From assembly GCA_949296575.1 (NCBI GenBank), contig CASFPE010000011.1, positions 62,001 to 126,000 of the forward strand: a DNA stretch of 64,000 nucleotides. The letters run 5' to 3'. The position numbers and the translations under genes are program-made. The notes beneath the pieces are model-generated. The model was not told the DNA's origin. It did not search any database and saw only the letters and a program-made list of their open reading frames with translations. This DNA is from an uncultured Bacteroides sp. (lineage in GTDB: Bacteria > Bacteroidota > Bacteroidia > Bacteroidales > Bacteroidaceae). The stretch's first letter is position 1. Each line of letters begins with the position of its first letter. This document shows, one piece after another, positions 3,757 through 19,869 of the stretch.

Positions 3757-3764
3757 TAGTTTTG
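3757..3764 (+). promoter_or_regulatory. Bacteroidetes-type -7 promoter element before the E1/E2/JAB-radical SAM cluster
   Basis: TAGTTTTG matches the TAnnTTTG consensus of the Bacteroidetes primary sigma factor. It sits about 150 nt before the chosen start of the JAB gene. That leaves a long leader, in which I see only a weak inverted repeat around an AAGTT/AACTT pair. It is the only consensus element I noticed ahead of the plus-strand cluster, so it may drive the whole operon. No clear -33 TTTG lies at the usual distance. Confidence 0.55.
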
Positions 3765-3916
3765 CATTAGAGCGTAAATGCATACAATTTACTAAAAGTT
3801 CGAGAAACTTGCAAAACTATGATATGAATAATGGCATTTCCCGCAGATAAAATAAAGATTATTGCGGACTTATGGCAAAACGGCAATCATAGGTGCATGG
3901 GATAAGGATAGAAACA

Positions 3917-4840
3917 ATGTCGGATGCCGGTATGACGAACACAGGGAAAATCATCACCTACCAGAGTGAATTGGATTATCTTTCCAAGTGCATTTTGGAA
4001 TCGCCACGCAGGGAAACAGGCGGGAACTTGTTCGGGCTGTGGACACCTTTTGGCATCCCGTTCATTCATTATGTGGTAGGGCCTGGCCCGAAAGCGGTGC
4101 ATGAACCAACGCATTTCAGGCAGGATTTCGCATTCTTGGATAAAAATGCGGACTATCTGGTGAAGGAGCATGCCTTGCATCATATTGGCTCGTGGCATTC
4201 GCATCATTCGTTGGGCTTGGCCGAACCCAGCAGCGGTGATACTGATTCCACGTTGTCCGGCATGAAAGAATGCCATCTTCCGAGTTTCATTTTGCTGATA
4301 GGCAATTACCGTCATGGGAAATCCACGGTCAATGCTTTCCGCTATGATAGTAAAGGATATTATGTGAAATTGAAGTGGGTTGTGCTGGATGGCGACAGCC
4401 CGCTCCGCAAGACATACGACAACATGCATGGCGATTTGGTGTATGAGCCGTCGGGCGAGCCCTGCATGATGCCGCTCGATGCCTGCAAGTTGGCAGACGA
4501 TGGACAGCCGGGCCGGCAGGAACGGCCTGTGTTTGCGCCTGGCTATTGGCTGTCTGTTGCGGAGAACCGGAAGGAATTTGCCGCTATTGTCAAGTTCCTG
4601 AAAGCAGAGTTTGATGCCGTTTCCATCTTCCAGGTTGATGATGCTACGGTGGAAGTGCGCATCATGGATTCAATGGTTCCTTACAAATTCGTTTTCGGCG
4701 CGGCTTTCCCGAAGGAGGCGCCCAAACTTTTGGCCCTCAAAAGCAAGAAACCCCAATGCAGCTTTGTCCCGGAATGGACGACAGAAGGGATGAGCCTGTC
4801 AGAAGCATTTATTCATTACTTTAAATCCATCAGGCTATGA
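3917..4840 (+). CDS. JAB/JAMM-domain peptidase fused to an E2-like (UBC-fold) domain
   Basis: JAB (JAMM) metalloproteases remove or process ubiquitin-like tags. Residues about 10-135 show the signature: Glu33 in RRETGG, then WHSHHS with His94 and His96, followed by a Ser-Ser-Gly-Asp stretch supplying the third zinc ligand (Asp108 or Asp110). Residues about 200-307 look like a degenerate ubiquitin-conjugating fold, with a strand followed by FPKEAPKLLAL and a final helix. I see no convincing catalytic Cys there. The ATG at 3917 is preferred over a GTG at 3893 because AAGGA lies 8 nt upstream. The stop overlaps the next start in an ATGA arrangement, indicating translational coupling. Substrate unknown. 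Confidence 0.8.
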   Translation: MSDAGMTNTGKIITYQSELDYLSKCILESPRRETGGNLFGLWTPFGIPFIHYVVGPGPKAVHEPTHFRQDFAFLDKNADYLVKEHALHHIGSWHSHHSLGLAEPSSGDTDSTLSGMKECHLPSFILLIGNYRHGKSTVNAFRYDSKGYYVKLKWVVLDGDSPLRKTYDNMHGDLVYEPSGEPCMMPLDACKLADDGQPGRQERPVFAPGYWLSVAENRKEFAAIVKFLKAEFDAVSIFQVDDATVEVRIMDSMVPYKFVFGAAFPKEAPKLLALKSKKPQCSFVPEWTTEGMSLSEAFIHYFKSIRL

Positions 4841-5259
4841 TGACAGAAGAACGATTAAAAGACGAATTTTACTTGCTTTCGCAAGCATTTTCAGTCAAGC
4901 AGTTCAAGTTGACGAGCAATACGTTGACCATTGCGCTTCAAACCAATTCCAAAAAGATTTATACCGTGAGGATAGACTTGGCCAATCATCCGTATGAAGT
5001 GCCTAAGGTGTTCATCACAAACCCGAAACCTTTGTTGGACCGTTCCGGGAATCCGATGTTGGATGCAAGCCATCCCATGCACACTTTGGGCGGCGAAAAC
5101 GGATGCACGCGCATTTGCCATTATGGGGCATCCCAATGGCATCCGGGCGTTTACCTTTATCAAGTGGTTGTCAAGGTCAGGGTGTGGCTTGAGGTCTATG
5201 AGAATCATTTGAAGACCGGTTATCCGCTTGATAAATATTTGACGACGGCAGCGGGATGA
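4837..5259 (+). CDS. Prokaryotic E2-like (UBC-fold) protein
   Basis: E2 proteins accept an activated ubiquitin-like tag on a Cys and pass it to a target. The 140-residue product shows the prokaryotic E2 layout. A strand pair and HPYEVPKVFI (about 51-60) correspond to the E2 proline-rich segment. GCTRICHYG follows, with Cys94 the best candidate active-site residue (Cys90 is an alternative), then Trp101 and a long C-terminal helix carrying RVWLEVYENHL. Start and stop of neighbouring genes overlap by 4 nt, so JAB and E2 are coupled. Together with the E1 gene downstream this makes a full activation-conjugation-removal set. Assignment is by motif order, not alignment. Confidence 0.75.
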   Translation: MMTEERLKDEFYLLSQAFSVKQFKLTSNTLTIALQTNSKKIYTVRIDLANHPYEVPKVFITNPKPLLDRSGNPMLDASHPMHTLGGENGCTRICHYGASQWHPGVYLYQVVVKVRVWLEVYENHLKTGYPLDKYLTTAAG

Positions 5260-5297
5260 ATGCCTTTGAGATTGTTGAACATTAAAAATATATTTCG

Positions 5298-5501
5298 ATG
5301 AGCTTCTTCAAGAAAAATCAATCAGATGACTGCACGGATGTGAGCCAAGTCATCAAAGACCAGCATGATGGCAATCGCGGTGTTGAATTAGTCATGAATG
5401 ATGACGGGGAATTGGTGGCTGTCCCGGCTTCCCAAGTTGATAAAGTGGACGGCATCAAGGCCACTGAAATCGCAAAGAAAGACTATTATTCATTATTGTA
5501 A
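5298..5501 (+). CDS. 67-residue acidic small protein between E2 and E1 genes
   Basis: Short, strongly acidic protein with an N-terminal Lys-Lys and central residues VELVMNDDGELVAVP that would form two beta strands, ending in DYYSLL. It lies 38 nt after the E2 gene and 12 nt before the E1 gene, the position where ubiquitin-like modifiers or system-specific adaptors are often encoded (for example the small C component of PRTRC cassettes). However, it lacks a C-terminal Gly-Gly and seems short for a full beta-grasp fold. It could be a modifier with an unusual tail, an adaptor, or a substrate. I do not recognise the family. Confidence 0.65.
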   Translation: MSFFKKNQSDDCTDVSQVIKDQHDGNRGVELVMNDDGELVAVPASQVDKVDGIKATEIAKKDYYSLL

Positions 5502-5513
5502 ACATGCCTTGAC

Positions 5514-6749
5514 ATGGAAAGCCTGCTCTACCTTTACCAATACCAGATACAGAAGTTCGTCAATTCTTCTGCCGGTTCCCAATTGGGGGTTGCCTATGAA
5601 TGGAAAGGAGAAGACGTGTACCATGCTTATTTGGAATATCCGCAAATAGCCCCCTCCGGCTATGCAGTGGCTTGCCTGTTCTTGAAGGCAGCCTGCAAGG
5701 CAGACTTTGAGAATGCCGAATGCTTTGCGGAAAACCTGATGAACCAAGACGCGTCCATGGCGCGGTTAGGCATGGTGGTTGTCTTTTGCATGGAGAACGG
5801 GCGGCTGCTGAAGCGCGCATTTGTACCGAATGATTCAGCCTGTTGCGTCCGGATTGAATATGTGCCTGACAAGAGCAACCTTTATACGCGCAGCAAAGGC
5901 CTGATTGAAGTTGGGGCGTTGGAAAAGAGACATGTGCTGATTGTGGGGTTGGGCAGCGGAGGTGCAACGATAGCCGTGGAACTGGCCAAGGCAGGAGTCG
6001 GCAATTTTGCGTTAGTGGACTTCGACCGTTTGGAGTTGCATAACATTGCCCGTCATATTGCCGGAGTCAATGAATTGGGACGATTGAAAACAAACATTGT
6101 CCGTGATGCCATCTTGGGCAAGAATCCTTATGCCAATATCAGCACGCATCCTGTTGACATCATGAAGGATATTCCTTTGATAGAACAACTTGTGTCGGGA
6201 ACAGATTTGGTGATAGCAGCTACAGACAGCCTTCCCAGCAGATATCTGTTGAACTCTTTGATTATAAAACATAAGAAAACGGGATTGTTCGGGCGGGCTG
6301 TCACCCGTGCCGAAGGCGGAGATGTGTTGAGGGTGCGTCCCGGAGGGCCTTGTTATGCTTGCTTGAAGGGAAGCCAGTGGTACACGCAAGAGGAAGAAAT
6401 CACAGATTTGCGCAGGGCGCGGGAAACAGGTGTGATTCCTGCTTACACTTCAGAAGAAGATGCGGATGCCATGGTGCAAGTCGGTTTGTCTACCGACATC
6501 GCTCCTATCAACACGATGGTCGTCAAATTGGCCATTCAGGAATTGTCGAGAGGAACGGAATGCCTGATCACGACATTGGACAAGGAATTGGATTATGATT
6601 TCTACATGTGGGCCAACCGCCGTGAATTGCATTTTGCCAATTGGGCGCCGTTCAATCATAATCCGGGGCGGAAAAAGCCGACCATATTGCAGTGGTATGG
6701 CGTGAAATTCCCAAAGAGTTGCGATTGCCACGAATGCAGGAATTATTGA
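5514..6749 (+). CDS. E1-like ThiF/MoeB-family adenylating enzyme
   Basis: E1-like enzymes use ATP to adenylate the C-terminus of a ubiquitin-like protein or, in MccB of microcin C7, of a peptide. Residues about 1-130 form an unrecognised N-terminal domain. From about 138 the nucleotide-binding fold is clear: VGLGSGG (145-150), VDFDRLELHNIARH with the catalytic Asp/Arg/Asn set, LGRLKT, and AATDS with Asp238. Two Cys pairs (Cys280/Cys283 in GPCYAC and Cys405/Cys408 near the C-terminus) fit the zinc site of ThiF-type E1s. No obvious transthiolation Cys is seen. The gene sits 12 nt after the 67-residue protein and 14 nt before the membrane SH3 gene. Confidence 0.88.
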   Translation: MESLLYLYQYQIQKFVNSSAGSQLGVAYEWKGEDVYHAYLEYPQIAPSGYAVACLFLKAACKADFENAECFAENLMNQDASMARLGMVVVFCMENGRLLKRAFVPNDSACCVRIEYVPDKSNLYTRSKGLIEVGALEKRHVLIVGLGSGGATIAVELAKAGVGNFALVDFDRLELHNIARHIAGVNELGRLKTNIVRDAILGKNPYANISTHPVDIMKDIPLIEQLVSGTDLVIAATDSLPSRYLLNSLIIKHKKTGLFGRAVTRAEGGDVLRVRPGGPCYACLKGSQWYTQEEEITDLRRARETGVIPAYTSEEDADAMVQVGLSTDIAPINTMVVKLAIQELSRGTECLITTLDKELDYDFYMWANRRELHFANWAPFNHNPGRKKPTILQWYGVKFPKSCDCHECRNY

Positions 6750-6763
6750 CAAATACTACGGTT

Positions 6764-7468
6764 ATGGCTAAGATGATAAGATTGCCGAGCGGCATCAGCA
6801 TTGACATGGAGCAAGGGGAGATACGGACTCCTCTTGGCCCCGGCCCTATTCCCATCAGCCATAACACAGGAACTCACGTTTATCGGAGAACGGTTTGGAA
6901 CCGCTTTGACAGCTTTATCGGCAATATAGGAAACTGGTTTGCAGATTATTCGGAAAGAATCACGAGCATCCTTTCCATTGTGCTGTTGGCAGGCATGGGC
7001 ATATCTTTCCTTATATGGCTGATATCGTTGGGCTTGTTTTGGGGAATTGTGGCAGGCATCCTTTTAGGGGGAATCGTCTATTATGCCGCCATGATTGTGG
7101 TCGGCATCTTTACATGGATAAGCAATATTCTTCTTGGGATTATCCGTTACATATTTTATTCCGGCACAACTTTCCTGATTGCATTGGCAGTCGTGGGAAT
7201 ATTTGCCGGCGTGAGTGTCTTGCCTGAGCGTCCATGGTCTGTGGAAACGGAAACGGCTGCGCCTCAAACTACATTGTATTATTGCACGGCAAGGTCTTCC
7301 CTGAATGTACGTTCTGCGCCTGACCTTAACGCAGAGGTGGTAGGAAGTTTGAAATTCGGTGATGCTGTGGAGGTGTATGGCATGGCCAATGGATTTGCCA
7401 AGATTAAGTACAATGGCGCGGAGGCATACGCAAGTGCGGATTATTTGAAGAAAAAGGAAGAAAGATAA
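6764..7468 (+). CDS. Membrane protein with C-terminal bacterial SH3 domain
   Basis: The ATG at 6764 is chosen because an upstream ATG at 6692 would overlap the E1 gene by 58 nt. The 234-residue product begins with a soluble stretch containing PLGPGPIPISHNTG. It then has a run of hydrophobic segments between about 65 and 155 (probably three or four helices, with an ILLGGIVYYAAMIVVGIF core). A bacterial SH3 (SH3b) domain follows from about 170 to 230, recognised by ARSSLNVRSAPDLNAEVVG and the closing ADYLKKK. SH3b domains usually bind cell-wall or peptide ligands. Its place just upstream of the Cys-rich peptide gene suggests a role in export, anchoring or display of the product. Function not known. 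Confidence 0.7.
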   Translation: MAKMIRLPSGISIDMEQGEIRTPLGPGPIPISHNTGTHVYRRTVWNRFDSFIGNIGNWFADYSERITSILSIVLLAGMGISFLIWLISLGLFWGIVAGILLGGIVYYAAMIVVGIFTWISNILLGIIRYIFYSGTTFLIALAVVGIFAGVSVLPERPWSVETETAAPQTTLYYCTARSSLNVRSAPDLNAEVVGSLKFGDAVEVYGMANGFAKIKYNGAEAYASADYLKKKEER

Positions 7469-7525
7469 AAGGCGGATTCCGAAAAGCCCTAACAGAGTAG
7501 GAACTAATGTTAAAGTGAAATTGCT

Positions 7526-7615
7526 ATGTTGACAAAAGTTTTCAAAGTAAAAGACACTAACACGAACGCATATGGTTGCTGTGACCAATGCGGCGGTTGC
7601 CAATGCAACAACTAA
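7526..7615 (+). CDS. 29-residue Cys-rich peptide, candidate RiPP precursor
   Basis: A very short gene in a 223-nt gap. The product has a basic, mixed N-terminal half (MLTKVFKVKDTNTN), suitable as a leader, and a C-terminal half AYGCCDQCGGCQCNN with five cysteines (18, 19, 22, 25, 27), five Gly/Asn residues and a terminal Asn-Asn. Short Cys-rich cores next to radical SAM/SPASM enzymes are typical of RiPP precursors. A strong stem-loop with a T-run follows 7 nt after the stop, as commonly seen after precursor genes. The terminal Asn is notable because MccB, an E1 relative, adenylates a C-terminal Asn. Coding status is inferred from composition and position; no Shine-Dalgarno is visible. Confidence 0.7.
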   Translation: MLTKVFKVKDTNTNAYGCCDQCGGCQCNN

Positions 7616-7622
7616 TCTGATG

Positions 7623-7672
7623 GAGGGGGTATCTGCGTTTTAAGGCGCGGATACTTCCCCCTCTTTGTTTTC
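7623..7672 (+). terminator. Stem-loop after the Cys-rich peptide gene (attenuator or partial terminator)
   Basis: The arms GAGGGGGTATCTGCG and CGCGGATACTTCCCCCTC pair almost completely around a short TTTTAAGG loop and are followed by TTTGTTTTC. Placed between the 29-residue peptide gene and the downstream enzyme genes, it would favour short, abundant peptide transcripts and let a fraction of polymerases read through. Confidence 0.75.
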
Positions 7673-7691
7673 ACTTTAAAAATTTGGAGGA

Positions 7692-8402
7692 ATGTTTTTC
7701 ATCAACCGAAGCGCCATTTCGTGGAGCGTTATTCTGATAATGGTAATGTTGCTATCGTTAGTCATTGTCTATGCAGATAGTTTGTCAATACCTTCCGAGA
7801 AAACTTCGGATGGCGTTGTTGCTATTTTGAGTGCTTTTGTTGGCATGTTGATAACGATTGCAGTGACAGCAATCCTGCTGAACCGGCAAACTGAGGTGGA
7901 AAGTTCCAAGGAAAGGCATATGAGGCAATTTGAGAAGAAGCAGGAAACCTATTATGCGTTCTTGGAAGAATTGGGAAACATCATTGCCACGATGCTTCAG
8001 AGAAGCCTGAGGGGAAATGACAAAAAGGCTTATGAGAATGTCACATCGCTTAGTTCATTGATCTTCCAATTTGGTTATTTGCGTATGCACATGGAAGATG
8101 AAACATTTTTGAATGTAATGGCTTGTGTGTCGAATATCTTTAATAAGTATCGTGAATTGAAAATCAGAGATGTTTACCAAAGCGAAATCCTGCAAAGCGG
8201 GCATCAAAGGTCTGTCGAGGTGAACAATAGGTTGTTTTGTTTCTCGGTGGTGTTGTCCGAGGAACTGTTCCATATCTCCAGTATTTTGAACAATGATATG
8301 TACCAAGGAAAATCTGAATTTGAATCAAACAATAAAATCGAGAACGAAATCCATCGGTTGCTCAATAGCTGTGGATTAAAGAATATGAACTTAAAACAAT
8401 AG
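7692..8402 (+). CDS. Membrane protein with two N-terminal helices and a coiled-coil cytoplasmic part
   Basis: The 236-residue product starts with two membrane spans (about 10-29 and 43-62) separated by a short polar loop. A charged, coiled-coil-prone stretch follows (about 65-95, EVESSKERHMRQFEKKQE), then a helical domain without recognised motifs. The topology recalls small two-span proteins of defence and signalling loci, but I do not recognise a family. It directly precedes the first radical SAM gene (4 nt), so it belongs to the same transcript. A membrane sensor, immunity or transport partner of the peptide pathway would fit the context; this is inference. Confidence 0.6.
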   Translation: MFFINRSAISWSVILIMVMLLSLVIVYADSLSIPSEKTSDGVVAILSAFVGMLITIAVTAILLNRQTEVESSKERHMRQFEKKQETYYAFLEELGNIIATMLQRSLRGNDKKAYENVTSLSSLIFQFGYLRMHMEDETFLNVMACVSNIFNKYRELKIRDVYQSEILQSGHQRSVEVNNRLFCFSVVLSEELFHISSILNNDMYQGKSEFESNNKIENEIHRLLNSCGLKNMNLKQ

Positions 8403-8406
8403 TGTC

Positions 8407-9774
8407 ATGCAGTATGCTAAATTAATTGAGAATGATATATTCCCTATACCGATAGGAGACGAGTTCGGGAAGATGCCGGATGAACTCAGCCTTGTTTATT
8501 CTCCTTTGACTGACAAAGCTATCTTGGTGAAACAAGCATATCTCCAACCCATGGAACAATACCTGTTGCATCCGGAGAATAGAAAAACTTTGCCTGAAGA
8601 CGTTGTAGAGGCAATGGATGCGCTCACCGACTTTGAGAACCGCAAAAAGCCTGCGCCTCTTGCAGAAGACCCTGACAAGTATACCCGGATGGCTGTCTTG
8701 CCCAATAATGTATGCAACTTCAAATGCAGTTATTGTTATTCGGCACATGGGCGTTCCGGCAAAGTCATCACCAAAGAATTGCTGAAAGCCGCCTTGGACC
8801 ATTTTGTGGATAATAAGCGGGTAAGCACTGACAATAAACTGGCCATATCTATCTTGGGCGGAGGCGAACCCTTGTTGTCGTGGGATTTGGTCCGCTTTAT
8901 CATTGAATACTCGAATGAGCGGGTCATGCAAATGGGATTCCGTGGCATAGATATCAATATCGTGACCAACGGTTCCATCTTTACCCAAGAGATGATCGAT
9001 GTGATTAAAAAATACAAGATACCGGTATCGATTTCATTTGAAATTTTAGAGGATATTCAAAACCTTCAACGAGGCCATTATGAAAAGGTGAGCGAAAACA
9101 TACGTTGGATTATCTCAGAAGGCATCCGTCCCCAGCTTCGCGCATGCATCACGAAAGACAACATATCGCTGATGAAACGCATGATTGAAGAAGTGCTTGA
9201 GAAGTTTCCCGGGACGCGTGAAGTGATGATGGAATATGTTACCGACCCGGAAAGGATGACAGACCCTCTTGATGTGAGATCCTTTTACGAGCAATATATC
9301 GATAACTTTTTTGAAGCCCATGATTATGCTGCCCAACACGGCCTTTTGCTGGACTGTTCAGCTTACCGTAACTTTAATTTGCTTATCCAGCGTTTTTGCC
9401 CGGGCGATAATACGCTTACAGCGTACGGTGAGATTAGTGTATGCAGCCGTGTGGGCGCACCTGCGGATGCGGGTTACAGTGCAAGCATTTATGGCAAGGT
9501 GAATTTGGATGGAAGTGTGGAGATTGACCGTGAAAAGTTCAACCATCTTATCGGCCTTAATGTTTACCATTACCCGCAATGTTCGTCATGTTGGGCCAAA
9601 TGGCATTGTGCAGGAGGTTGCATGGTCCACAAGCATACCTACAATCAAGCCATTCGTGATGAAATTTGCCGGTACATGCGCAATTTCTGCAAACGGATGT
9701 TGTTGCGCAACCTTGACAAGGAATACCGGAAATATTGCAACATGTCATTAAAAGAAGCGGTGGAGAGCATATAA
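8407..9774 (+). CDS. Radical SAM/SPASM peptide maturase, paralog 1 of 5
   Basis: Radical SAM enzymes reduce S-adenosylmethionine at a 4Fe-4S cluster to start radical chemistry; SPASM members often crosslink or epimerise RiPP precursors. The 455-residue protein has an N-terminal domain (about 1-95, with a VYSPLTDKA segment shared by all five paralogs) and the cluster motif CNFKCSYC (Cys103, 107, 110). The GGGEPLLSW segment follows, and near the C-terminus the SPASM Cys set: CSSCWAKWHCAGGC (about 392-405), a Cys in a preceding CSRVG segment and a later ICRY. The N-terminal domain may recognise the precursor. It ends exactly where paralog 2 begins. Confidence 0.92.
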   Translation: MQYAKLIENDIFPIPIGDEFGKMPDELSLVYSPLTDKAILVKQAYLQPMEQYLLHPENRKTLPEDVVEAMDALTDFENRKKPAPLAEDPDKYTRMAVLPNNVCNFKCSYCYSAHGRSGKVITKELLKAALDHFVDNKRVSTDNKLAISILGGGEPLLSWDLVRFIIEYSNERVMQMGFRGIDINIVTNGSIFTQEMIDVIKKYKIPVSISFEILEDIQNLQRGHYEKVSENIRWIISEGIRPQLRACITKDNISLMKRMIEEVLEKFPGTREVMMEYVTDPERMTDPLDVRSFYEQYIDNFFEAHDYAAQHGLLLDCSAYRNFNLLIQRFCPGDNTLTAYGEISVCSRVGAPADAGYSASIYGKVNLDGSVEIDREKFNHLIGLNVYHYPQCSSCWAKWHCAGGCMVHKHTYNQAIRDEICRYMRNFCKRMLLRNLDKEYRKYCNMSLKEAVESI

Positions 9775-11094
9775 ATGGCCGATTTGGACTTGTTTTATCA
9801 AAGGAATCTTTTCCCGGTGCATGTGGCTGATTTTGTGCCGTATGCACAATCATTATACATCATCTATTCTCCCTTGTCTCATCATATTGTTCCTGTGGAC
9901 GAGAATGAACTGTCGCGTCTTAAAGAGGAACTGGAAACAAACGGGCATTTCATGGATGCAGAAATGCAGTGCCTTGTGAATGAACAGGAAAAGCCGGTTC
10001 CTAATTATGTCAACAGTCCTGGCGAGGTTTATGCGCTGACTGTCTTGCCTAACAATATCTGCAATTTCTCTTGTAGTTATTGTTATGCAGCGAAAGGGCA
10101 TGGGCATGATGAATTGGATGAAGGCACGCTGCGTGCTGTCCTTGATTTCTTTATTGATGCCCGGCGGACAAAGAGGCGGCATCTTTATGTCTCTTTTGGC
10201 GGAGGAGGAGAGCCGCTGTTGTCGTGGAGCAAAGTGCGAATGGCAATTTTGCATGCAGAGGAGTTGGCAAGCCGCCAAGGCTTCACAATGCATTATTCCT
10301 TTGCTTCGAATGGTTCGGTCATGAATGATGAAATCATAGAATTTATTCAAAGATATAATATAAAAACGAATATTTCTTTTGATATTTTGGAAGATGTCCA
10401 AAATGTGCAAAGGAAGCATTATGCTAAGGTGTGCCAAACACTTGACACTTTGCTTGAACACGGCATTATTCCTACTATCAATTCTGTCATCACCCCTTTT
10501 AATGTGATGAGGCAAGAGGAGATGGTAAGAGAGGTTCATTGTCGTTTCCCGAAATTGAAACGATTGAGTTTTGATTATGTCGTGGATGGCAATCTTTTTC
10601 AGACAGCAGAAGAACTGCAATCTTTTTATGATGATTACACGTTGCATTTTTTTCAGGCAAAGGGAATCGGGAAAGAGTTTGGCCTATGTGTAAGCAGTAT
10701 TAAATACCACAATTTGGAGCAGATCAAGATGAGGGCTTGCGCCGGAGGTTTTGACCTCACCCCGCAAGGGACACTGAGCATGTGCTTTTTTGTGTCGTCG
10801 CCCAAGGAAACGCTTTATCCTGATTTCGTTTATGGACGTGTGGAGGATGGAACAGTTGTGTTTGACACTGGGAAGTTCCGTCGTTTGGTAGAGGCAAGCG
10901 ACAACAAGCAGGAAAAATGCCACCGATGTTTCCTGAAATGGCACTGTGCCGGTGGTTGCCTTTATCATGCGAAAACGTATTCTAAGGAAATGCTCGAAAC
11001 AATGTGCCGTTTTCAGCAGAAGTTCTCATTAGTGGCATTGCTGAATGAAATGGCAGGACAAAATATTTTGGAACATGCAGGTGCCGAATCTTAA
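9775..11094 (+). CDS. Radical SAM/SPASM peptide maturase, paralog 2 of 5
   Basis: The 439-residue protein has the same architecture as its neighbours: an N-terminal domain with IIYSPLSHH, the cluster motif CNFSCSYC (Cys96, 100, 103), GGGGEPLLSW, and an intact SPASM region with a CAGG...MCFF pair and CHRCFLKWHCAGGC, then MCRF. The ATG follows the previous stop without any gap, implying coupled translation and near-equal dosage. Its last 20 nt overlap the start of paralog 3. Sequence between the motifs differs clearly from paralog 1, so the five copies are old duplicates rather than recent ones. The reaction is unknown; thioether, C-C crosslink or another SPASM reaction on the Cys-rich peptide are options. 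Confidence 0.92.
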   Translation: MADLDLFYQRNLFPVHVADFVPYAQSLYIIYSPLSHHIVPVDENELSRLKEELETNGHFMDAEMQCLVNEQEKPVPNYVNSPGEVYALTVLPNNICNFSCSYCYAAKGHGHDELDEGTLRAVLDFFIDARRTKRRHLYVSFGGGGEPLLSWSKVRMAILHAEELASRQGFTMHYSFASNGSVMNDEIIEFIQRYNIKTNISFDILEDVQNVQRKHYAKVCQTLDTLLEHGIIPTINSVITPFNVMRQEEMVREVHCRFPKLKRLSFDYVVDGNLFQTAEELQSFYDDYTLHFFQAKGIGKEFGLCVSSIKYHNLEQIKMRACAGGFDLTPQGTLSMCFFVSSPKETLYPDFVYGRVEDGTVVFDTGKFRRLVEASDNKQEKCHRCFLKWHCAGGCLYHAKTYSKEMLETMCRFQQKFSLVALLNEMAGQNILEHAGAES

Positions 11095-12421
11095 TGACCA
11101 TAACATACAATTGGCTGACTTGTCCCGCCATTATGAAATCGAAGAGGGGAAAGTCTTTTTGGTTTATGCGCCCCTTGCAGGAGTCTTTTTCCTTGCAGAT
11201 GCTGATACGGTGCAACGTCTTGAAGCATTTGTCGAGAACGGAGACGACGAAGAAATGGAAGAACTTTGGGCGCAGTTGAAGGAAAACTCGGAGGATTACA
11301 GAAGCAGCATCGTGGAAGAACCTTCCCAATTTACGCGCCTGTCCATCCTTCCAAATCTTACTTGCAACTTGTCTTGCGCTTATTGCTATTCGGCGAAAGG
11401 TCGTTCCAAAATGGAGATAGATGAAAGCCATCTTAAAATTATGCTTGACTACTTCATTGATTGCCACCGTACAAGCAGCCGCCACTTGTCAATTTTCATA
11501 TCCGGTGGAGGCGAGCCGCTTCTGTCGTGGGAAAAGTTAAGGTTCATTTTTTGTTACAGTCGGCAAAGAGCAGTTGCGCAAGGCTTCACACTCGACATCT
11601 TCCTGATGACCAATGGCACTCTTATTACCTCCGATATCGCCCATGAATTGAAGGAGCAAGATGTGAATGTTGGGGTGTCATTTGAAATCTTGCCTGATGT
11701 GCAGGACAGCCAACGGGGAAGCTTTCATAAAGTGTCACAGAATATTCGGCTTTTGCTTGACATGGGCATCGTTCCTAATATTAGTTCGGTAATCACCGGC
11801 TTGAATGTGGACAGGATGGAAGAAATGGCAGATACGGTTGCTTCTTCTTATCCAGGCATCCGCCATCTCAACTTTGACCCGGCGATGAGCAGCGATATTT
11901 TCCCTGATTCAGAAAGGTTGGATGCTTTTTACCAAAAGTTCATTCATAATTTTTTTAAGGCCAAAGAGTTGTGCAAGAAATACGGGATGACGCTGGATTG
12001 CAATGTGGTGCGTAAAGCAGAAAAGCTCTTTCCACGTTATTGCCAAGGAAAACTTTGCCTTACGCCGGAAGGGAAGATATCGATTTGCCATAGTGTTTCC
12101 TCGCCCCGTGAGGCTGCTTATCAGAAAGTCGTGTATGGTGAGATTCGCAACGGGCAGTTGGCTTTTGATACAGGCAAGTTCAAGTCTTTTATTGATAAGG
12201 GGAATTTCCTGCTTCCACGATGCCATTCCTGTATTGCCCGGTGGCATTGTGCAGGAGGATGCATGATGTATCGGATGAATTACAACGAGGAGCAATTTGA
12301 GGCTGTGTGCAGGTTTACGGCTTATGCAATAACCGAAATCTTGCTTAAACGGTTGGATGCCAGTTTTAAGAAAGAACAAGGTCAAAGCATCAGGCAACTT
12401 TTAGGGATTACAAACATTTAG
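11075..12421 (+). CDS. Radical SAM/SPASM peptide maturase, paralog 3 of 5
   Basis: Start set at the ATG at 11075. This places VYAPLAGV 30 residues from the start, as in the other paralogs, and gives a 20-nt overlap with paralog 2 (an ATG at 11045 would add ten unrelated residues). The 448-residue product has CNLSCAYC (Cys97, 101, 104), GGGEPLLSW, the CQGKLCLTPEGKISICHS stretch and CHSCIARWHCAGGC, followed by AVCRF, so both the catalytic and the auxiliary cluster sites look intact. It is followed by a 4-nt gap to paralog 4. Confidence 0.92.
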   Translation: MQVPNLNDHNIQLADLSRHYEIEEGKVFLVYAPLAGVFFLADADTVQRLEAFVENGDDEEMEELWAQLKENSEDYRSSIVEEPSQFTRLSILPNLTCNLSCAYCYSAKGRSKMEIDESHLKIMLDYFIDCHRTSSRHLSIFISGGGEPLLSWEKLRFIFCYSRQRAVAQGFTLDIFLMTNGTLITSDIAHELKEQDVNVGVSFEILPDVQDSQRGSFHKVSQNIRLLLDMGIVPNISSVITGLNVDRMEEMADTVASSYPGIRHLNFDPAMSSDIFPDSERLDAFYQKFIHNFFKAKELCKKYGMTLDCNVVRKAEKLFPRYCQGKLCLTPEGKISICHSVSSPREAAYQKVVYGEIRNGQLAFDTGKFKSFIDKGNFLLPRCHSCIARWHCAGGCMMYRMNYNEEQFEAVCRFTAYAITEILLKRLDASFKKEQGQSIRQLLGITNI

Positions 12422-12425
12422 CGAT

Positions 12426-13730
12426 ATGGTTCAATTTCACCATCTATATGAACAAGAGATTTATCCGTTGCCATTAGAGGGCGGTTTCTTGGTGTATGCG
12501 CCGCTTTCAGGATTGATGATGCCAATGGCTTCAGATGAAGTGGAGCGATTGGAAAACCATCTGGCCACATCTTCTGAAGACCGTGAAGCGGAAGAACTTA
12601 TCGCATATATCAATCATGAAAGGAAAGGGCGCAGGACTATACCGGCAAAGCATTCTCCAAGCGAGATACACAAACTTACTATTTTGCCAACGCATCGATG
12701 CAACTTCAGATGCAGTTATTGCTATTCTTCAGAAGGACGGCAAAATAAGACTTTGACGCGTGAAAAGGCAATCGCCATGATGGATTATTTCATCGATAAA
12801 CACCGCACTTCGCTTACAGACCTTTGGCTTGCCATTTTGGGAGGCGGAGAACCTTTCCTTTCTCCGGGACTGACGGCTGAAATTATTGTCCATGCCCGGA
12901 GACGGGCTAAAGAACAAGGATTCAATTTGGGCATAGGGCTTACAACCAATGGCTCATTGTATGATGAGAACTTGGCACGGGTAATGGTAGAGAATGCAGT
13001 GTCGCTTGGCGTTTCATTCGAGGTGCTTGAAGAAATCCAGAACCAACAAAGGCAACATTACGGGAAAGTGGTGGAAACTGTTGCAAAATACATGGATGCA
13101 GGAGTGGATATAACCATAAAATCGATTATCACACCTGCCAATGTCTTTCGTTTGAATGAAATGGTGGTGGAAATGCATCGCCTTTTCCCTCTTGTGAAGA
13201 AATATAAGTTGCAGATAGTGGAAGACCCGGATATTTTCTCCGAACGGAAGACGATGGAAATGTTTTATGCGGACTTCACGCATTATTTCTTTCAGGCAGA
13301 GGCCACAGGCCGTGATTTGGGCATAGATGTGTATGTACTCGCCTCTAAGTATGCAGACATGCTCATTGAACATTATTGCGGGGGTGAAATGTGCCTTACC
13401 CCGGAAGGGACGATTACCATTTGCCATCGGAAATCATCATCTAAAGAGCTTGGATACGAAGATTTTGTTTATGGGAAGGTTGATGAGGATGGGACGGTTC
13501 GTCTTGATGTCGCACGTTTCTCTCGCTTGATTGCTCACGACATCAATGCCCGCGAAGCTTGCGCCCAATGTTTCGTGAAGTGGCATTGCGGAGGGGGATG
13601 TTTGGCGCAAGCATCTATCTACAACCGGGAGCAGCTTGACATCATTTGCGATTGGACAAGAAGTTTCACAAAAGAGATTCTTGCCCGTCATTTGCAGCAC
13701 GCTTTGCGTGAAGAGACAGGAAACCTTTAA
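12426..13730 (+). CDS. Radical SAM/SPASM peptide maturase, paralog 4 of 5
   Basis: The 434-residue protein has the shared N-terminal domain with VYAPLSGL and the cluster motif CNFRCSYC (Cys92, 96, 99). GGGEPFLSPG replaces the LLSW form of the other four copies. The SPASM region reads CGGEMCLTPEG...ICHR and CAQCFVKWHCGGGC, then IICDW. All expected Cys are present. The replacement of Trp after the GGGEP motif and of Ala in the HCAGGC motif by Gly makes this the most distinct paralog by eye, which may mean a different site or reaction on the peptide. A 13-nt gap separates it from the unknown 176-residue gene. Confidence 0.92.
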   Translation: MVQFHHLYEQEIYPLPLEGGFLVYAPLSGLMMPMASDEVERLENHLATSSEDREAEELIAYINHERKGRRTIPAKHSPSEIHKLTILPTHRCNFRCSYCYSSEGRQNKTLTREKAIAMMDYFIDKHRTSLTDLWLAILGGGEPFLSPGLTAEIIVHARRRAKEQGFNLGIGLTTNGSLYDENLARVMVENAVSLGVSFEVLEEIQNQQRQHYGKVVETVAKYMDAGVDITIKSIITPANVFRLNEMVVEMHRLFPLVKKYKLQIVEDPDIFSERKTMEMFYADFTHYFFQAEATGRDLGIDVYVLASKYADMLIEHYCGGEMCLTPEGTITICHRKSSSKELGYEDFVYGKVDEDGTVRLDVARFSRLIAHDINAREACAQCFVKWHCGGGCLAQASIYNREQLDIICDWTRSFTKEILARHLQHALREETGNL

Positions 13731-13743
13731 TTGTTTGTTTCGT

Positions 13744-14274
13744 ATGCAGCTATTTGAATACAGTTTCGATAAGAAGGAGAAAGGAAAATTCCCGTTTGAA
13801 GAAACAGTGGATTATGTCCTTACGGTGCCTTGTGTCAACCGGCAAGAAGTGCTGGATTACATTTTCCGTTCTTATCGTTTCCGTGATTATTTGTACATTA
13901 CGGATATTTTCCCGAGAATGTTTGAAAACGATGAACGTTGCTTCCGCCGGTTCACTAGCAGGGAAGGTTTTGCTGTCAATATGCGCCGATTGGCTGTGAC
14001 TTGCCTTGCCATCTTCGTCAGGCATTTCATAGAAGATGATTCTAAAAGCGCGATGGTTATCAGTGGAAGCTACGAAGACAATGAAACCGGAAAGGGAGCT
14101 TCCCGCAAATTGAAGCTTTACCGGTATTTCTTTGATCCTTTGTTGGAGGAGTGGAATTTGCGTTCGGTGGCAATGTTTGAAGAAAACGCTTTCATCTTGG
14201 TTCGGAAAGATCATCCATTGCCTGATGCGGAAATTAAACAAGAATATTTGGACTTTAAATCAACCAAGGGATGA
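13744..14274 (+). CDS. Unknown 176-residue protein between radical SAM paralogs 4 and 5
   Basis: Start placed at the ATG at 13744, 13 nt after the previous stop; a longer in-frame ORF from 13636 would overlap paralog 4 heavily. The product is soluble, rich in Phe, Tyr and Arg, and carries FPFEETVDYVLTVPCVNRQE near its start and a C-terminal half with LKLYRYFFDPLLEEWNLRS. No cluster-binding Cys pattern, signal peptide or membrane helix is seen. Its stop overlaps the next start by 4 nt (ATGA), so it is translated together with paralog 5 and may be its partner or a peptide carrier. I do not recognise the family. Confidence 0.65.
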   Translation: MQLFEYSFDKKEKGKFPFEETVDYVLTVPCVNRQEVLDYIFRSYRFRDYLYITDIFPRMFENDERCFRRFTSREGFAVNMRRLAVTCLAIFVRHFIEDDSKSAMVISGSYEDNETGKGASRKLKLYRYFFDPLLEEWNLRSVAMFEENAFILVRKDHPLPDAEIKQEYLDFKSTKG

Positions 14275-15599
14275 ATACAGAGATATTGTACCGTAATAAC
14301 ATATTCCTTATACCCATCGGTTCTTATTTGGAAACAGAAGATGAGGCATATTGCCTCGTTTATTCCCCATTGGCAGGCAAAATGCTTGTGGCCGATAAAG
14401 AAGGACTGGAAGAATTGCCGGATGTATTGCCGGAACTTGTAGTTGATGGCGATGCCAGCCGCTTATTGAGCAAAGTGAACGCGGCGGGCGATTTGCAGAA
14501 AATGTCTGTCCTGCCCAACCATGCTTGCAATTTCAGTTGTTCTTATTGCTATTCGGCAAAAGGCAGGAGCAACGTTTCGTTGTCGCAAGAAACGCTGGAT
14601 AAAGCTTTGGAATATTTCATCAATCCGCAACGTTTGAGCGAACGCCATCTCAGTCTTTCTTTCATTGGAGGGGGAGAGCCTCTTTTGTCGTGGCCGTTGG
14701 TGGAGCATGGCATCCGTTATGCCCATGCATTGGCCTTGCGGCATGGCTTCAACTTGCTGATGACATTGACAACCAATGGGTCTATCATGAACGATGACAT
14801 TATTCGTTGCCTGAAAGATTGCCAGGTTCTTCCCAATATCTCTTTCGACATCATTGAGGAAGTACAGAATAAGTACCGCAAGCATTTCAACCAAGTGTGC
14901 AATACGATTGACAAACTTTGCGGAAGTGGATTGGTGCCGGTGGTGAATGCCACGATTACTCCGGACACCGTGGAGCGCATGACGGAAATGTTCCAATTCA
15001 TGGACACACGTTTCCCGAAGATAACAGACATGGTGTTTGAACCTGTCGTGTCGAATGAATTGTTTGCCACTTCCGGGGAATTAGGCTTGTTTTATGACAA
15101 ATACTTGGAACATTTTTTTGCAGCAAGGAATATGGCTCAAACGGTGGGCAAGAATGTCACTTGCCGCATTTTTAAAAATGTCGATTCTCTTTTGACAAGA
15201 GGATGCCCCAGCAAGCTGACACTTACACCGCAAGGAGACCTTTCCATTTGCTACTGCATCTCATCCCCGCAAGAAAAGATGTATGCACAACGCGTTTATG
15301 GCAAGGTGGATGCGAAAGGGGTAGAGATAGATGAAGAAAAGTTCCAACGCATCAACGGCATCAATGTCTATTCGTTTGCAAAATGTGAAAAGTGTTTTGC
15401 CAAATGGCATTGCGCGGGCGGTTGCATGTGTCCGAACGATCTCTATGACGAGGAATACCTTGATGAAGTATGCCGGTTTACCAAAGGGATGATTCTCCAA
15501 ACGTTGTTGCAACGTTTGGAAGAACGGTGCAAAGCCGAAGGAGCAGGCGGTTTGCGGGAGTATTGCCATTTTCTGAAACAAAACAATCTAAAATCATGA
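14271..15599 (+). CDS. Radical SAM/SPASM peptide maturase, paralog 5 of 5
   Basis: The 442-residue protein has the shared N-terminal domain with VYSPLAGK, CNFSCSYC (Cys86, 90, 93), IGGGEPLLSW, the CPSKLTLTPQGDLSICYC stretch, CEKCFAKWHCAGGC and EVCRF. Both cluster regions are intact. The gene overlaps its neighbours by 4 nt on each side (the 176-residue gene upstream and the SDR gene downstream), the tightest coupling in the cluster. By motif wording it is closest to paralogs 2 and 3. Confidence 0.92.
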   Translation: MNTEILYRNNIFLIPIGSYLETEDEAYCLVYSPLAGKMLVADKEGLEELPDVLPELVVDGDASRLLSKVNAAGDLQKMSVLPNHACNFSCSYCYSAKGRSNVSLSQETLDKALEYFINPQRLSERHLSLSFIGGGEPLLSWPLVEHGIRYAHALALRHGFNLLMTLTTNGSIMNDDIIRCLKDCQVLPNISFDIIEEVQNKYRKHFNQVCNTIDKLCGSGLVPVVNATITPDTVERMTEMFQFMDTRFPKITDMVFEPVVSNELFATSGELGLFYDKYLEHFFAARNMAQTVGKNVTCRIFKNVDSLLTRGCPSKLTLTPQGDLSICYCISSPQEKMYAQRVYGKVDAKGVEIDEEKFQRINGINVYSFAKCEKCFAKWHCAGGCMCPNDLYDEEYLDEVCRFTKGMILQTLLQRLEERCKAEGAGGLREYCHFLKQNNLKS

Positions 15600-16321
15600 A
15601 GACCGTATTTATAACAGGAATATCGCGTGGATTGGGCTTGAAGCTTGCCGGGCATTATTTGCAGAAAGGATGCCGGGTCATAGGGCTTAGCCGTACCATG
15701 AGCGATGAATTGGAAATGCTTATGGATGAATTTGGCAGTGCCTTGAAATGGTGTCCATTTGATTTGGGCAATTTGTCCGGCATGGAGAGCCGTTTGGAAG
15801 CAGCCCTTCACCTAAGCGAGGAAAAGATAGATGTTTTCATAAACAATGCAGCAATCCTTTACAAGGAACTTGTCCATCGCATCCAAGCGGAAGAAATGGC
15901 AAAGATGGTGATGATAAACACGGTTGCGCCTATTGTGGTTACGAAAATGGTGATTAACAATTTCCTGCGGCATAAGACGCGAGGGATTATCGTGCATGTT
16001 TCATCGATATGCGCCCACCGTTCGTTTTATGGCCTTTCGATGATAGGAGCCACGAAAGCAGCCATTGAAACCTTTTCGCAAGACACTGCTTATGAATATG
16101 GACGCTTCGGCATCCGTTCAAATACCGTAGTGCTTGGGCTGATGAATATAGGGATGCGTTCCACCGTGAACGACCGGCTGACAAAAGGATTGAAATCGAT
16201 ATCCGCCCTTGGGCAACTCATTGATACGGATTCTGTGGTAAATACGATTGATTATCTTACAAGTGAGAAAAGTTATTGCATCACGGGTGAGAAGATCCAC
16301 ATTAATGCAGGAATATTATGA
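15596..16321 (+). CDS. SDR-fold protein lacking the catalytic tyrosine
   Basis: Short-chain dehydrogenases/reductases use NAD(P) to oxidise or reduce alcohols and ketones. The 241-residue product has the cofactor motif TGISRGLG near its start, NNAA about 83 residues further on, and the catalytic-Ser segment HVSSICAHR. The usual Tyr of the YxxxK motif is replaced: the aligned stretch reads IGATKAA, with Ile at the Tyr position and Lys retained. A Tyr is found 5 residues earlier (SFYGLS) but is out of register. The protein could be a non-catalytic binding subunit or use another acid. Start at 15596 chosen for the 4-nt overlap with paralog 5; the stop overlaps the M42 gene. Confidence 0.85.
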   Translation: MKTVFITGISRGLGLKLAGHYLQKGCRVIGLSRTMSDELEMLMDEFGSALKWCPFDLGNLSGMESRLEAALHLSEEKIDVFINNAAILYKELVHRIQAEEMAKMVMINTVAPIVVTKMVINNFLRHKTRGIIVHVSSICAHRSFYGLSMIGATKAAIETFSQDTAYEYGRFGIRSNTVVLGLMNIGMRSTVNDRLTKGLKSISALGQLIDTDSVVNTIDYLTSEKSYCITGEKIHINAGIL

Positions 16322-17370
16322 TGGGGAAGGATTGCATGGATAAAGATTTTCTTTTTGCATTATTGCAGGCGGCAGGCGCTTCTTCGGATGAACATCGGCC
16401 AAGTACGCTTTTCCGGCAATATCTTTCTGCTTGTGCGGATGAAGTGGTGGCTGACATGATAGGCAACACTCTTGTTGCATCCAATGCCGGAGGAGATTAT
16501 CGGATTCTGCTTTCTGCGCACATTGACGAAATTGGCCTGCAGGTGACAGGATATTGTGATGACGGATTGTTGAAACTAAGGAAATTGGGAGGCATGGCTC
16601 CTTTGCATGCCATAGGGCAGGAGGTGGAAATCCATACACATCAAGGCATCCGGCCGGGAATTGTCGTGTCGCGCGCTGCGGGAAACAACAATGCCGTTCC
16701 CGACATGGATGATTGTTTCATTGACATTTTCAGCCAAAGCAAAGAGGAAACAATGCAATGGGTGCGTCTCGGTGATGTTGCCACATTCAGTCCCAATGCA
16801 CGTGTCGTAGGGGATACGCTCATTTCAAAAGCCGTTGACGACCGGGTGGGCGTGTTTGTCCTTTCACAAGTGTTCCGCCATTTGGCGGGCAAGTTGCATC
16901 ATGTCCATCTTTCTGTTGCAACGACTGTGCAAGAAGAAATAGGGTTGAGGGGAATGGCCGTGCTTGCACAAAACACAATGCCTGCTGTTTGTTTGAATGT
17001 GGATGTGACAGATGCTTGCCAAATGGACAAGAAACATTTGCCGAAGTTGGGTGATGGCAGTGTTCTTTACCGCAATGCGGACAGTAATCCTGTGCTTCGC
17101 CAAGCGTTGGAAAGCGTTGCACATACGGCGGATATACCTTTGCAGATGGCTGTAGGACGTAATATAACCGGAGGGACGGACAGTTCGCGCATCCAATTGT
17201 TTTCTCCTCGAACAGCCGTGGCCGATATTTCCATTCCGTGCAAATACATGCATACGCATTACGAACAATGTTCTTTGAAGGATATAGGTTCCTGCATTAA
17301 GTTGTTGGAATCATTCCTCCTTCATCTTGATGCGGACTTTCCTGTGAATCCGCCCGATTGGACATTCTGA
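16318..17370 (+). CDS. M42-family metallo-aminopeptidase
   Basis: M42 peptidases are cytosolic, two-metal aminopeptidases that trim peptides from the N-terminus. The 350-residue product shows the family set in order: AHIDEIG (first metal His/Asp), SKAVDDRVG (bridging Asp), TVQEEIGLRG (catalytic Glu and metal Glu), NVDVTDA (metal Asp) and YMHTHYEQ (last metal His). All metal ligands seem present. In this cluster it is a good candidate for removing leader residues after modification, or for recycling peptides. It overlaps the SDR gene (ATGA) and, depending on the start used, the methyltransferase gene, so it is part of the same operon. Confidence 0.9.
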   Translation: MMGKDCMDKDFLFALLQAAGASSDEHRPSTLFRQYLSACADEVVADMIGNTLVASNAGGDYRILLSAHIDEIGLQVTGYCDDGLLKLRKLGGMAPLHAIGQEVEIHTHQGIRPGIVVSRAAGNNNAVPDMDDCFIDIFSQSKEETMQWVRLGDVATFSPNARVVGDTLISKAVDDRVGVFVLSQVFRHLAGKLHHVHLSVATTVQEEIGLRGMAVLAQNTMPAVCLNVDVTDACQMDKKHLPKLGDGSVLYRNADSNPVLRQALESVAHTADIPLQMAVGRNITGGTDSSRIQLFSPRTAVADISIPCKYMHTHYEQCSLKDIGSCIKLLESFLLHLDADFPVNPPDWTF

Positions 17371-17954
17371 AGCATCTGAAGATGGGAACCGTAAATTGGG
17401 CAACCGGCCAGCAGGTTTTGGGGCAATTGTTTTATGAGGCAGTAAAGGCGCATCATCCATCCCTTTACCGCAATATTCTTGATGTGGGGTGCGGTTACGG
17501 GATTGCGGCTGCCTGCATGTGCGCACTTGGTGAAAGGATGACATTGATTGATGTTTCGCAATCTGTGGTTGAAGGCCAACGGCATCGGTGGCGGCACAAC
17601 CGTCAGGTTACCGTTGCTTGCAGCACCATTCATTCAATGGGCGGTTCTTATGACTTGATTTATTATTTCCTTTCCTTCCATCATGTGGCAGATATAATGG
17701 CTGAACTATCCAAAATCCGTTCGTTGCTTGCCCAAGATGGAGAACTTGTCATTTGTGAAATCTCTCCCAATTGTGAAGCACCTTTCCATCAGAACGATAT
17801 TGTTCCGCATGACGGTTTCGCTTCTGGGCATTTGTCTGCTATCCTGCAAGGAAATGGCTTTCGTGTCGCTCAAGTGGAGGAACTGGCTGCATTGCGCAAG
17901 GACGGGGTTGATTACGGAATTTATGTGATAAGAAGTTTTGTTGAAACATTGTAA
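17358..17954 (+). CDS. Class I SAM-dependent methyltransferase
   Basis: A small (198-residue) methyltransferase with the SAM-binding motif NILDVGCGYGIAAA at about 39-52, an acidic LIDVSQS strand end, and a post-strand region SYDLIYYFLSFHHV typical of the class I fold. The substrate is not evident. As the last gene of the plus-strand cluster it may methylate the peptide, for example a carboxylate or side chain, after the radical steps. The start at 17358 overlaps the M42 gene by 13 nt. An ATG at 17382 would give a non-overlapping, 190-residue version and cannot be excluded. Confidence 0.85.
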   Translation: MDILKHLKMGTVNWATGQQVLGQLFYEAVKAHHPSLYRNILDVGCGYGIAAACMCALGERMTLIDVSQSVVEGQRHRWRHNRQVTVACSTIHSMGGSYDLIYYFLSFHHVADIMAELSKIRSLLAQDGELVICEISPNCEAPFHQNDIVPHDGFASGHLSAILQGNGFRVAQVEELAALRKDGVDYGIYVIRSFVETL

Positions 17955-17994: not shown

Positions 17995-18084
17995 CAGGCA
18001 GCATGCATGCTTTAAACGGAGTCTCTTATTGTTAGATTTGAGAATCCGAACGGTATGTAGTTGAGAACTGAAAAGATAACGGAC

Positions 18085-18675
18085 ATGGCTTGGTTTAAGA
18101 AGACAGGTATGGAATCGACAGTCAAGGAGCTTGCGAAGCTGTTCAAGAAGATGGTGAAGAACCATTATACTTTCGGCGCGATATGGAAGAACATTGCCTT
18201 GGGGCAAAAGGCTTTCGAGATAATGAAGGCTTTGCCTGACACGATGGAAGGCGAATTTGACACGCCGGAAGAAAAAGCGGCATTGTTGGGGAAGATGCTG
18301 GGGCAGATGGAAGAAACCCTGTCGCCAAGGTTTTGCATCGAAGTTCGTGAGTATATGCAGGCATTGGATGCCGGAAATGAAAGCAACCGCAAGGCATTGG
18401 AACAGTTGCGGGACTTCATCAATCTGGATTTGCCGATGGAGGAATACTGCAAGAAGTATGGCCGGCACCTGAAGTTCGACCCGGTGGAGCGGACACGAGA
18501 GTGGGAAGACATTATTTGCAAAGTGGAGGAAGAATGCGAAAAGAAACTGAAAGGCGAAAGGCGCGGCATGGGTTTCTGCTTCATGTATTGGATGGTCAAA
18601 GGGAATGTGTTGGGGAAGTATGGCATCCAATGGGATTCTCCAGCTGTCATGAATCCAAGAGTCAGGTTTGACTGA
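18085..18675 (+). CDS. Hypothetical soluble helical protein
   Basis: The 196-residue product (start at the ATG at 18085; an in-frame TTG at 18061 is possible) is almost entirely helical, with a basic N-terminal stretch, a Glu/Lys-rich middle containing TPEEKAALLGKMLGQMEETL, and a C-terminal segment rich in Trp and Met. No catalytic motif or signal peptide is visible. It lies 15 nt before another unknown gene. The grouping of three soluble genes without known function behind one promoter would suit a toxin-immunity or stress locus, but nothing in the sequence proves it. Confidence 0.6.
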   Translation: MAWFKKTGMESTVKELAKLFKKMVKNHYTFGAIWKNIALGQKAFEIMKALPDTMEGEFDTPEEKAALLGKMLGQMEETLSPRFCIEVREYMQALDAGNESNRKALEQLRDFINLDLPMEEYCKKYGRHLKFDPVERTREWEDIICKVEEECEKKLKGERRGMGFCFMYWMVKGNVLGKYGIQWDSPAVMNPRVRFD

Positions 18676-18690
18676 AAAAGGAAGTTTGGA

Positions 18691-19854: not shown

Positions 19855-19869
19855 CTTATCCTGGAAGAT

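Follow-up and report, generated by a model that had tools for sequence, protein, structure and literature searches.

The first part of a 64,000-nucleotide stretch of DNA from an uncultured Bacteroides sp. (positions 62,001 to 126,000 of contig CASFPE010000011.1, hereafter the window) carries an E1/E2/JAB gene set followed by a radical SAM peptide pathway. Our analysis shows that this locus consists of two separable modules lying on the same strand: the E1, E2 and JAB genes together with the gene of a 67-residue partner protein (module A), and a cassette for a ribosomally synthesized and post-translationally modified peptide (RiPP; module B). The explanation that we tentatively prefer, and whose chance of being right we put a little short of even, is that the partner is likely to be a conjugated tag and that the E1 module probably carries the RiPP cassette as an exchangeable cargo. 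The assembly that holds the window has 35 contigs (2.72 Mb), and a near copy of the window, with a 99% identical E1, was found in CALUIR010000001.1, a metagenome-assembled genome of an uncultured Bacteroidaceae. Every open reading frame (ORF) named in the initial annotation of this DNA was found at the position given there, all on the + strand. The later starts used below for the SH3 protein (around 6764; the ORF opens at 6692), the 176-residue protein (around 13744) and the SDR-fold protein (around 15596) were deduced from homologues and from the ends of the neighbouring genes. The features are as follows.

3893-4840, +, JAB (JAMM-like) peptidase, 315 residues (PADLOC JAB, E value 8e-12)
4837-5259, +, E2-like protein, 140 residues, candidate catalytic Cys94 and His82 (PADLOC E2, 3e-6)
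5298-5501, +, partner protein, 67 residues, candidate tag (family in 69 of 71 loci, tail step, predicted fold)
5514-6749, +, E1-like adenylating enzyme, 411 residues (Pfam ThiF, 2e-32)
6764-7468, +, membrane protein with SH3_3 at the C-terminus (SH3_3, 3e-15; family in 17 loci)
7469-7503, +, DUF805b RNA, Rfam RF02914 (47.5 bits, exceeding the gathering cut-off of 35.6)
7526-7615, +, Cys-rich RiPP precursor, 29 residues (relatives in L172, L173 and L055)
7616-7672 (listed also as 7625-7658), +, terminator-like or attenuator hairpin (-27.8 kcal/mol, z -5.9)
7692-8402, +, predicted membrane protein, 236 residues (no family above cut-off)
8407-9774, +, radical SAM/SPASM enzyme R1 (Pfam, 2e-18)
9775-11094, +, radical SAM/SPASM enzyme R2 (Pfam, 5.5e-14)
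11045-12421, +, radical SAM/SPASM enzyme R3, start possibly at 11075 (Pfam, 5.4e-14)
12426-13730, +, radical SAM/SPASM enzyme R4 (Pfam, 1.1e-14)
13744-14274, +, 176-residue protein, longest ORF from 13636 (homologues in L172 and L173)
14271-15599, +, radical SAM/SPASM enzyme R5 (Pfam, 4.8e-13)
15596-16321, +, SDR-fold oxidoreductase, longest ORF from 15470 (Pfam, 1.3e-33)
16318-17370, +, M42 family aminopeptidase (Pfam, 6.6e-63)
17358-17954, +, class I methyltransferase (Pfam, 3.7e-13)

The modules were found joined in four distinct loci, namely the window (with its near copy, L039), L040, L041 and L055. Each of them has the SH3 gene, the DUF805b RNA, a short peptide encoded after the SH3 gene and an M42 gene, the M42 relatives in L040, L041 and L055 being 31-33% identical to that of the window. 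Compared with the window, E1 identity amounts to 82% in L040 and 75% in L041, with 80-91% for E2 and 58-64% for JAB; the cassette enzymes of these two loci belong to other families than those of the window, L041 encodes a YcaO protein, and B12-radical SAM proteins occur in L040, L041 and, as judged by clustering, L055. In the E1 tree (62 rows; L011, L012, L080, L091 and L098 were left out) the joined loci occupy two positions, and branches with good support require no fewer than two changes. At 66 of the 71 E1 loci no contiguous radical SAM peptide cassette was found behind E1, 11 of these having less than 3 kb of sequence there; four others of the 66 (L058, L064, L074 and L090) contain a single clustered radical SAM gene each. 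These 66 loci show that the coupling of the modules is not obligatory. Nevertheless, four joined loci arising from at least two unions, with the same junction and an M42 gene, make an accidental pairing not easy to accept. The initial annotation had treated both gene sets as parts of one pathway that would be called into question if they occurred independently in relatives. Independent occurrence is largely what we observed, in the 66 loci and conversely in L172 and L173 (see below), yet the modules were united at least twice and at the same junction.

Some observations on the surroundings of these loci can be added. A few kb upstream of the module in L040 (3467-6456) relaxase-like and integrase-like ORFs were noticed by eye, a hint of mobility. 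Two host families share homologues of a DUF1963 gene and of a gene for a 204-residue protein next to the locus, with opposite orientations (L041 20307-21231; window 18061-20517). A ClpB-like double AAA+ protein, not present in the window, is encoded in 35 of the 73 clustered loci, mostly behind E1 (e.g. L048 4716-7301). We considered this protein as a possible ClpP partner, but the motif [ILMV]G[FL] behind the second Walker A was absent in 27 of 31 proteins and occurred at least once in four, a test that is not sharp.

Module A is a genuine E1/E2/JAB set, as proposed initially: its catalytic residues are intact, its genes form one operon and the core recurs in about 70 loci. In the 71 loci of the E1 family we counted 71 E1, 70 E2, 69 partner and 67 JAB genes, using profiles built from members of the same loci and a protein search, and because of this recurrence the four-gene core must be more than a chance assembly. 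JAB residues E26, H102, H104, S113 and D116 are invariant in 65 of 65 aligned sequences, E2 residues H82, C94, W101 and W117 are present in 58 of 58, and E1 has invariant residues across 20 relatives. The predicted structure of an E1 relative resembles ThiF, MoeB, UBA5, MccB and BubCD; because the VIA-align rows mostly span residues 161-455 of this model, the comparison does not extend to the fold of its N-terminal parts. In the Pfam scan JAB gave an E value of 0.018, under the cut-off, and E2 gave no match. The JAB protein had been described as a JAB-E2 fusion, of which the JAB part stood (PADLOC, 8e-12); the E2 half gave a weak profile match (one-to-one hhalign probability 12.6%, E value 0.0023), and this C-terminal domain is weakly similar to E2/RWD in hhalign. 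A JAB-like origin of the N-terminal domain of E1, which we also considered, was unsupported (profile comparison, probability 1.2%).

The distribution of the E1 module is sporadic: it was found in 4 of 393 genomes of the order and 4 of 399 of the family, the window's own genome counted, and an alignment search of viral contigs with E1 gave no relative. In a protein search, 1758 proteins were related to E1 at E <= 1e-10. Weak E1 matches (L109-L114) were left out of the analysis. In L042, L043, L057, L086, L089 and L101 antisense ORFs masked the E1 gene in the ORF calls; profiles recovered these loci, which are included in the core counts and absent from the tree and from the hairpin counts given below.

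The 67-residue partner is likely to be the peptide tag that module A activates and conjugates. It had no match in Pfam, NCBIfam, PADLOC or PHROGs. A search identified 227 relatives, of which 120 were listed; the statistics on their ends rest on these 120, and no Pfam domain was found in any of them. In the E1 family the partner has about 55-70 residues. Near the end 41 of the listed relatives have DY[YF] and 77 have GF, letters that are fixed by the way the two end types were chosen. The window protein has KKDYY followed by a variable tail. Among the listed relatives 0-6 residues follow DYY, with an entropy of 3.0 bits directly behind the motif, whereas after GF there is one position that is F in 75 of 77 and A in 2 of 77, then a position of 3.2 bits, the tail being 0-8 residues long. 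Precursors of ubiquitin carry a removable extension, and because of its variability the tail of the partner looks like an extension of this kind. The predicted fold of the partner consists of a helix (12-23), two strands (29-33 and 39-43) and two short helices, with a predicted local distance difference test (pLDDT) of 81-85 in the block of residues 31-50, and it agrees with the prediction for a relative fused to E1 (helix 2-15, strands 22-27 and 32-37). Foldseek returned 0 matches to the 67-residue model at E <= 0.001; the top rows were PB1 domains with E values of 1.5 or worse, which are not meaningful at a predicted template modelling score (pTM) of 0.41. The PB1 domain has a beta-grasp fold.

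A motif resembling the predicted hairpin of the partner often starts unrelated accessory proteins encoded 3' of E1; examples are SH3 proteins, small membrane proteins, the UvrD-like helicase of L081, an FGE-sulfatase-like protein of L045 that also has SH3, and a HEAT-repeat protein in L102. Of 192 accessory genes, 37 fit a regular expression that was made by eye on these same loci, the hits being spread over 31 of 52 loci; among 808 control genes from the loci 5 fit, 4 of which are small tag-like genes within the core. With a profile built from partner proteins alone, 20 of 192 accessory proteins exceeded the 1% control threshold, as compared with 7 of 770 controls (p 1e-9), and six scored above all controls; on inspection by eye, 4 of these 20 positives are not hairpins. 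L039, L011 and L012 were left out of the hairpin counts. In L074 (15053-16141) a radical SAM protein encoded about 4 kb behind E1 itself begins with a motif like the hairpin. More broadly, one could envisage protein conjugation through a hairpin of about 60 residues that does not have the ubiquitin fold, is trimmed by JAB at an aromatic end and is activated by E1 and E2, in which the same hairpin labels varied effectors and in some lineages a whole radical-SAM peptide pathway fills the effector slot, but we hold this extended scheme to be doubtful.

Module B has the features of a genuine radical-SAM peptide pathway, in agreement with the initial annotation: a conserved short precursor adjoins five SPASM enzymes, and R1-R5 all contain CxxxCxxC and C-terminal SPASM-type cysteines. 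Peptides identical to the 29-residue precursor in 22 and 18 of 29 positions are encoded in L172 (genome G087) and L173 (genome G372), respectively, and L055 has a related, longer precursor of 35 residues; because it has relatives in these three other loci, the small ORF must be real beyond chance. Enzymes like R1-R5 number five in L172 and six in L173, the counterparts of R1, R2 and R5 being 40-51% identical, and L173 also has homologues of the 176-residue protein (34%) and of the SDR (40%). In L172 (reverse complement, 12060-13967) a 635-residue fusion joins an R4 homologue to a homologue of the 176-residue protein (39% over 173 residues, E value 1e-39), which ties the latter to the RiPP pathway. 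The 176-residue protein, scanned as a 212-residue ORF, had no convincing family in Pfam, NCBIfam or PADLOC; neither had the 236-residue protein in Pfam, PADLOC or PHROGs, its matches to the PADLOC '2TM effector' (0.021) and to a PHROG (0.096) both being weak. No E1, E2, JAB or M42 match was detected in the 20 kb around L172 and L173, nor a DUF805b at the gathering score. In neither G372 nor G253 was a member of this E1 family found at E <= 1e-30, and G087 has one on a separate contig of 4.2 kb. The cassette is rare: with four candidates scored per genome at E <= 1e-45, four enzyme matches were obtained in 3 of 393 genomes of the order, the window's own counted, and among 395 genomes of the phylum matches at E <= 1e-90 occurred only in the window's own genome. 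In NCBIfam, PapB (109.7 and 98.3 bits) and SCIFF (81 and 88 bits) were among the best matches of R1 and R2, respectively, and neither enzyme reaches the PapB (NF047865) cut-off of 340. In G253 (L174, reverse complement, 3852-4622) radical SAM genes are interspersed with genes for several short peptides that are rich in Cys and Asp and have a VSEL-like leader in common; an integrase-like ORF and an M42 gene lie nearby. These peptides are possibly another RiPP family.

At the junction of the modules the DUF805b RNA sits 22 nucleotides upstream of the precursor start, and in L040, L041 and L055 it occupies the same place, the gap between the SH3 and peptide genes (39-47 bits in the joined loci). 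It did not exceed the gathering score in any of the 8 SH3 loci scanned out of the 12 that lack a cassette, nor in the 3 RiPP loci without E1. None of 200 shuffled sequences was as stable as the hairpin at 7616-7672. The internal RNA and the strong hairpin after the peptide suggest that the precursor has its own regulation. The claim that all these genes stand behind one consensus promoter was not borne out, as 29 promoter-like sites were found where 26.5 are expected and the consensus scanned is not of the Bacteroidetes type. We rejected DUF805b as a RiPP-specific signal: 41 of 120 relatives have it above the cut-off, by eye mostly before other genes. In relatives it precedes many kinds of genes, sometimes, as noticed by eye in L122, that of a RiPP-like peptide.

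From these data we infer the following scheme, all steps of which are our own proposal. JAB would first remove the variable residues that follow KDYY in the 67-residue protein, exposing a C-terminus for adenylation by E1. Cys94 of E2 would pass the partner to a target, for which the SH3 membrane protein or some other hairpin-bearing product of the operon is the most plausible candidate; JAB could also undo the bond between partner and target. In parallel, R1-R5 would cross-link the precursor core (CCDQCGGCQCNN), and the M42 peptidase would cut off the leader.

Several observations weigh against this scheme. Only 5 of the 71 loci are joined, two of them near copies, and a common E1 clade comprises the window, L039, L040 and L041, which may thus trace to a single union. 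The precursors of L040 and L041 were called from position and mutual likeness alone, the link between E1 and precursor is broken in L172 and L173, and the strong hairpin after the precursor, present in the window and L055, is missing in L040. The model of the partner is of modest confidence (pLDDT 68.9, pTM 0.41), and the protein has no conserved C-terminal Gly. Weak selection on the last codons ahead of the E1 gene could also produce the variable tail, and the reading frame shared with E1 in 8 loci also fits a structural subunit of E1. The SH3 protein of the window fits the regular expression, yet scores -6.2 with the partner-only profile (first 36 residues), and a hairpin in the RiPP precursors had to be rejected (profile scores -10 to -17).

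The shared frame, at 8 of 71 loci, leads to the alternative of a 67-residue protein that stays with E1 as a subunit and whose hairpin serves as a dock for hairpin-bearing partners, the true modifier being another protein or an effector. Such a role would agree with the absence of a beta-grasp fold from the predictions and with the hairpin motif of the accessory proteins, and PMC7159879 describes analogous effector-associated domains beside a ubiquitin-like conjugation set. However, conservation breaks off sharply where the hypervariable tail begins, which suggests processing at this point, and at 61 of the 69 loci with a partner the two proteins are in separate frames; on balance we think a fixed subunit rather unlikely. 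The initial annotation had favoured a single pathway, in which the radical SAM enzymes first modify the peptide and an MccB-like E1 then works on its C-terminus, E2 and JAB bringing about its adenylation, conjugation or release. That module A must act on the 29-residue peptide is not supported: as L172 and L173 carry the same precursor and enzyme type without adjoining E1/E2/JAB genes, action of E1 on the peptide is not needed. With the peptide and enzymes free of E1 in G372 and beside an unlinked E1 in G087, precursor C-termini that vary among the joined loci (NN, NNS, PLD, PID) and the 66 of 71 E1 loci (11 of them short behind E1) that have no such cassette, we consider a single pathway quite improbable.

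Mycofactocin and pyrroloquinoline quinone are redox cofactors derived from peptides, and after this model the cassette might make an internal cofactor for the adjacent SDR, the E1 module being a horizontally acquired defence or stress system with no relation to it. No transporter family was found in the Pfam scan of the window operon proteins, an SDR is present in the window and L173, and the E1 module is sporadic among genomes of the order and family, all of which would suit this reading. The recurrence of unions at the same kind of junction and the lack of an SDR match in L055 and L172 speak against it, and we judge this possibility improbable.

If the proposal is correct, protein conjugation by E1 and E2 need not rely on the beta-grasp fold, and the shared hairpin would be a sequence handle by which members and effectors of many such operons could be predicted. 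The 29-residue precursor with its five or six paralogous SPASM enzymes offers a compact model for the division of work on one peptide, and the natural experiments, with each module alone and both joined, allow a direct test of the coupling.

The initial annotation was aware of no published system that combines all these parts. Consistent with this, no report of the union was found among titles and beginnings of abstracts in the open-licence literature; the subscription literature was mostly outside this coverage, and a prior description is possible. PapB-type ranthipeptide and SCIFF maturases, which are among the best matches of R1 and R2, likewise act with a Cys-rich core, but the scores are far under the cut-offs (340 and 425) and here five paralogues adjoin one 29-residue precursor. 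E1 is related by sequence and fold to the ThiF-like RiPP adenylyltransferases MccB and PaaA and, as in the systems reviewed in PMC12250964, adjoins a peptide gene; unlike these, the window has E2 and JAB, and the same precursor occurs without E1. The terms JAB, 'E2 enzyme' and 'Bacteroid' do not occur in that review. The prokaryotic E1/E2/JAB operons of types 6a-6e (Iyer et al. 2006, PMC1779556) and CBASS with Cap2/Cap3 are similar in having E1, E2 and JAB in one operon and in their sporadic spread; the PADLOC profiles of E1, E2 and JAB all matched the window proteins. The operon proteins of the window differ in that Pfam revealed neither a CD-NTase nor a metallo-beta-lactamase (MBL) domain, and E2 and E1 are separate ORFs, whereas Cap2 of type II CBASS is a single E2-E1 fusion. 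In contrast to the partners in those operons, the window partner is a small hairpin protein, no beta-grasp partner having been detected. The FtsH ternary conflict systems with effector-associated domains (EAD; Kaur et al. 2020, PMC7159879) have an adaptor domain common to a ubiquitin-like conjugation component and the effectors, with AAA+ chaperones and JAB nearby, as in many loci of the present E1 family. The arrangement as a whole resembles, by analogy, these EAD-linked conflict systems; the differences are that the element in common is here a short hairpin, that the AAA+ protein is ClpB-like and that a few loci have a RiPP cassette behind.

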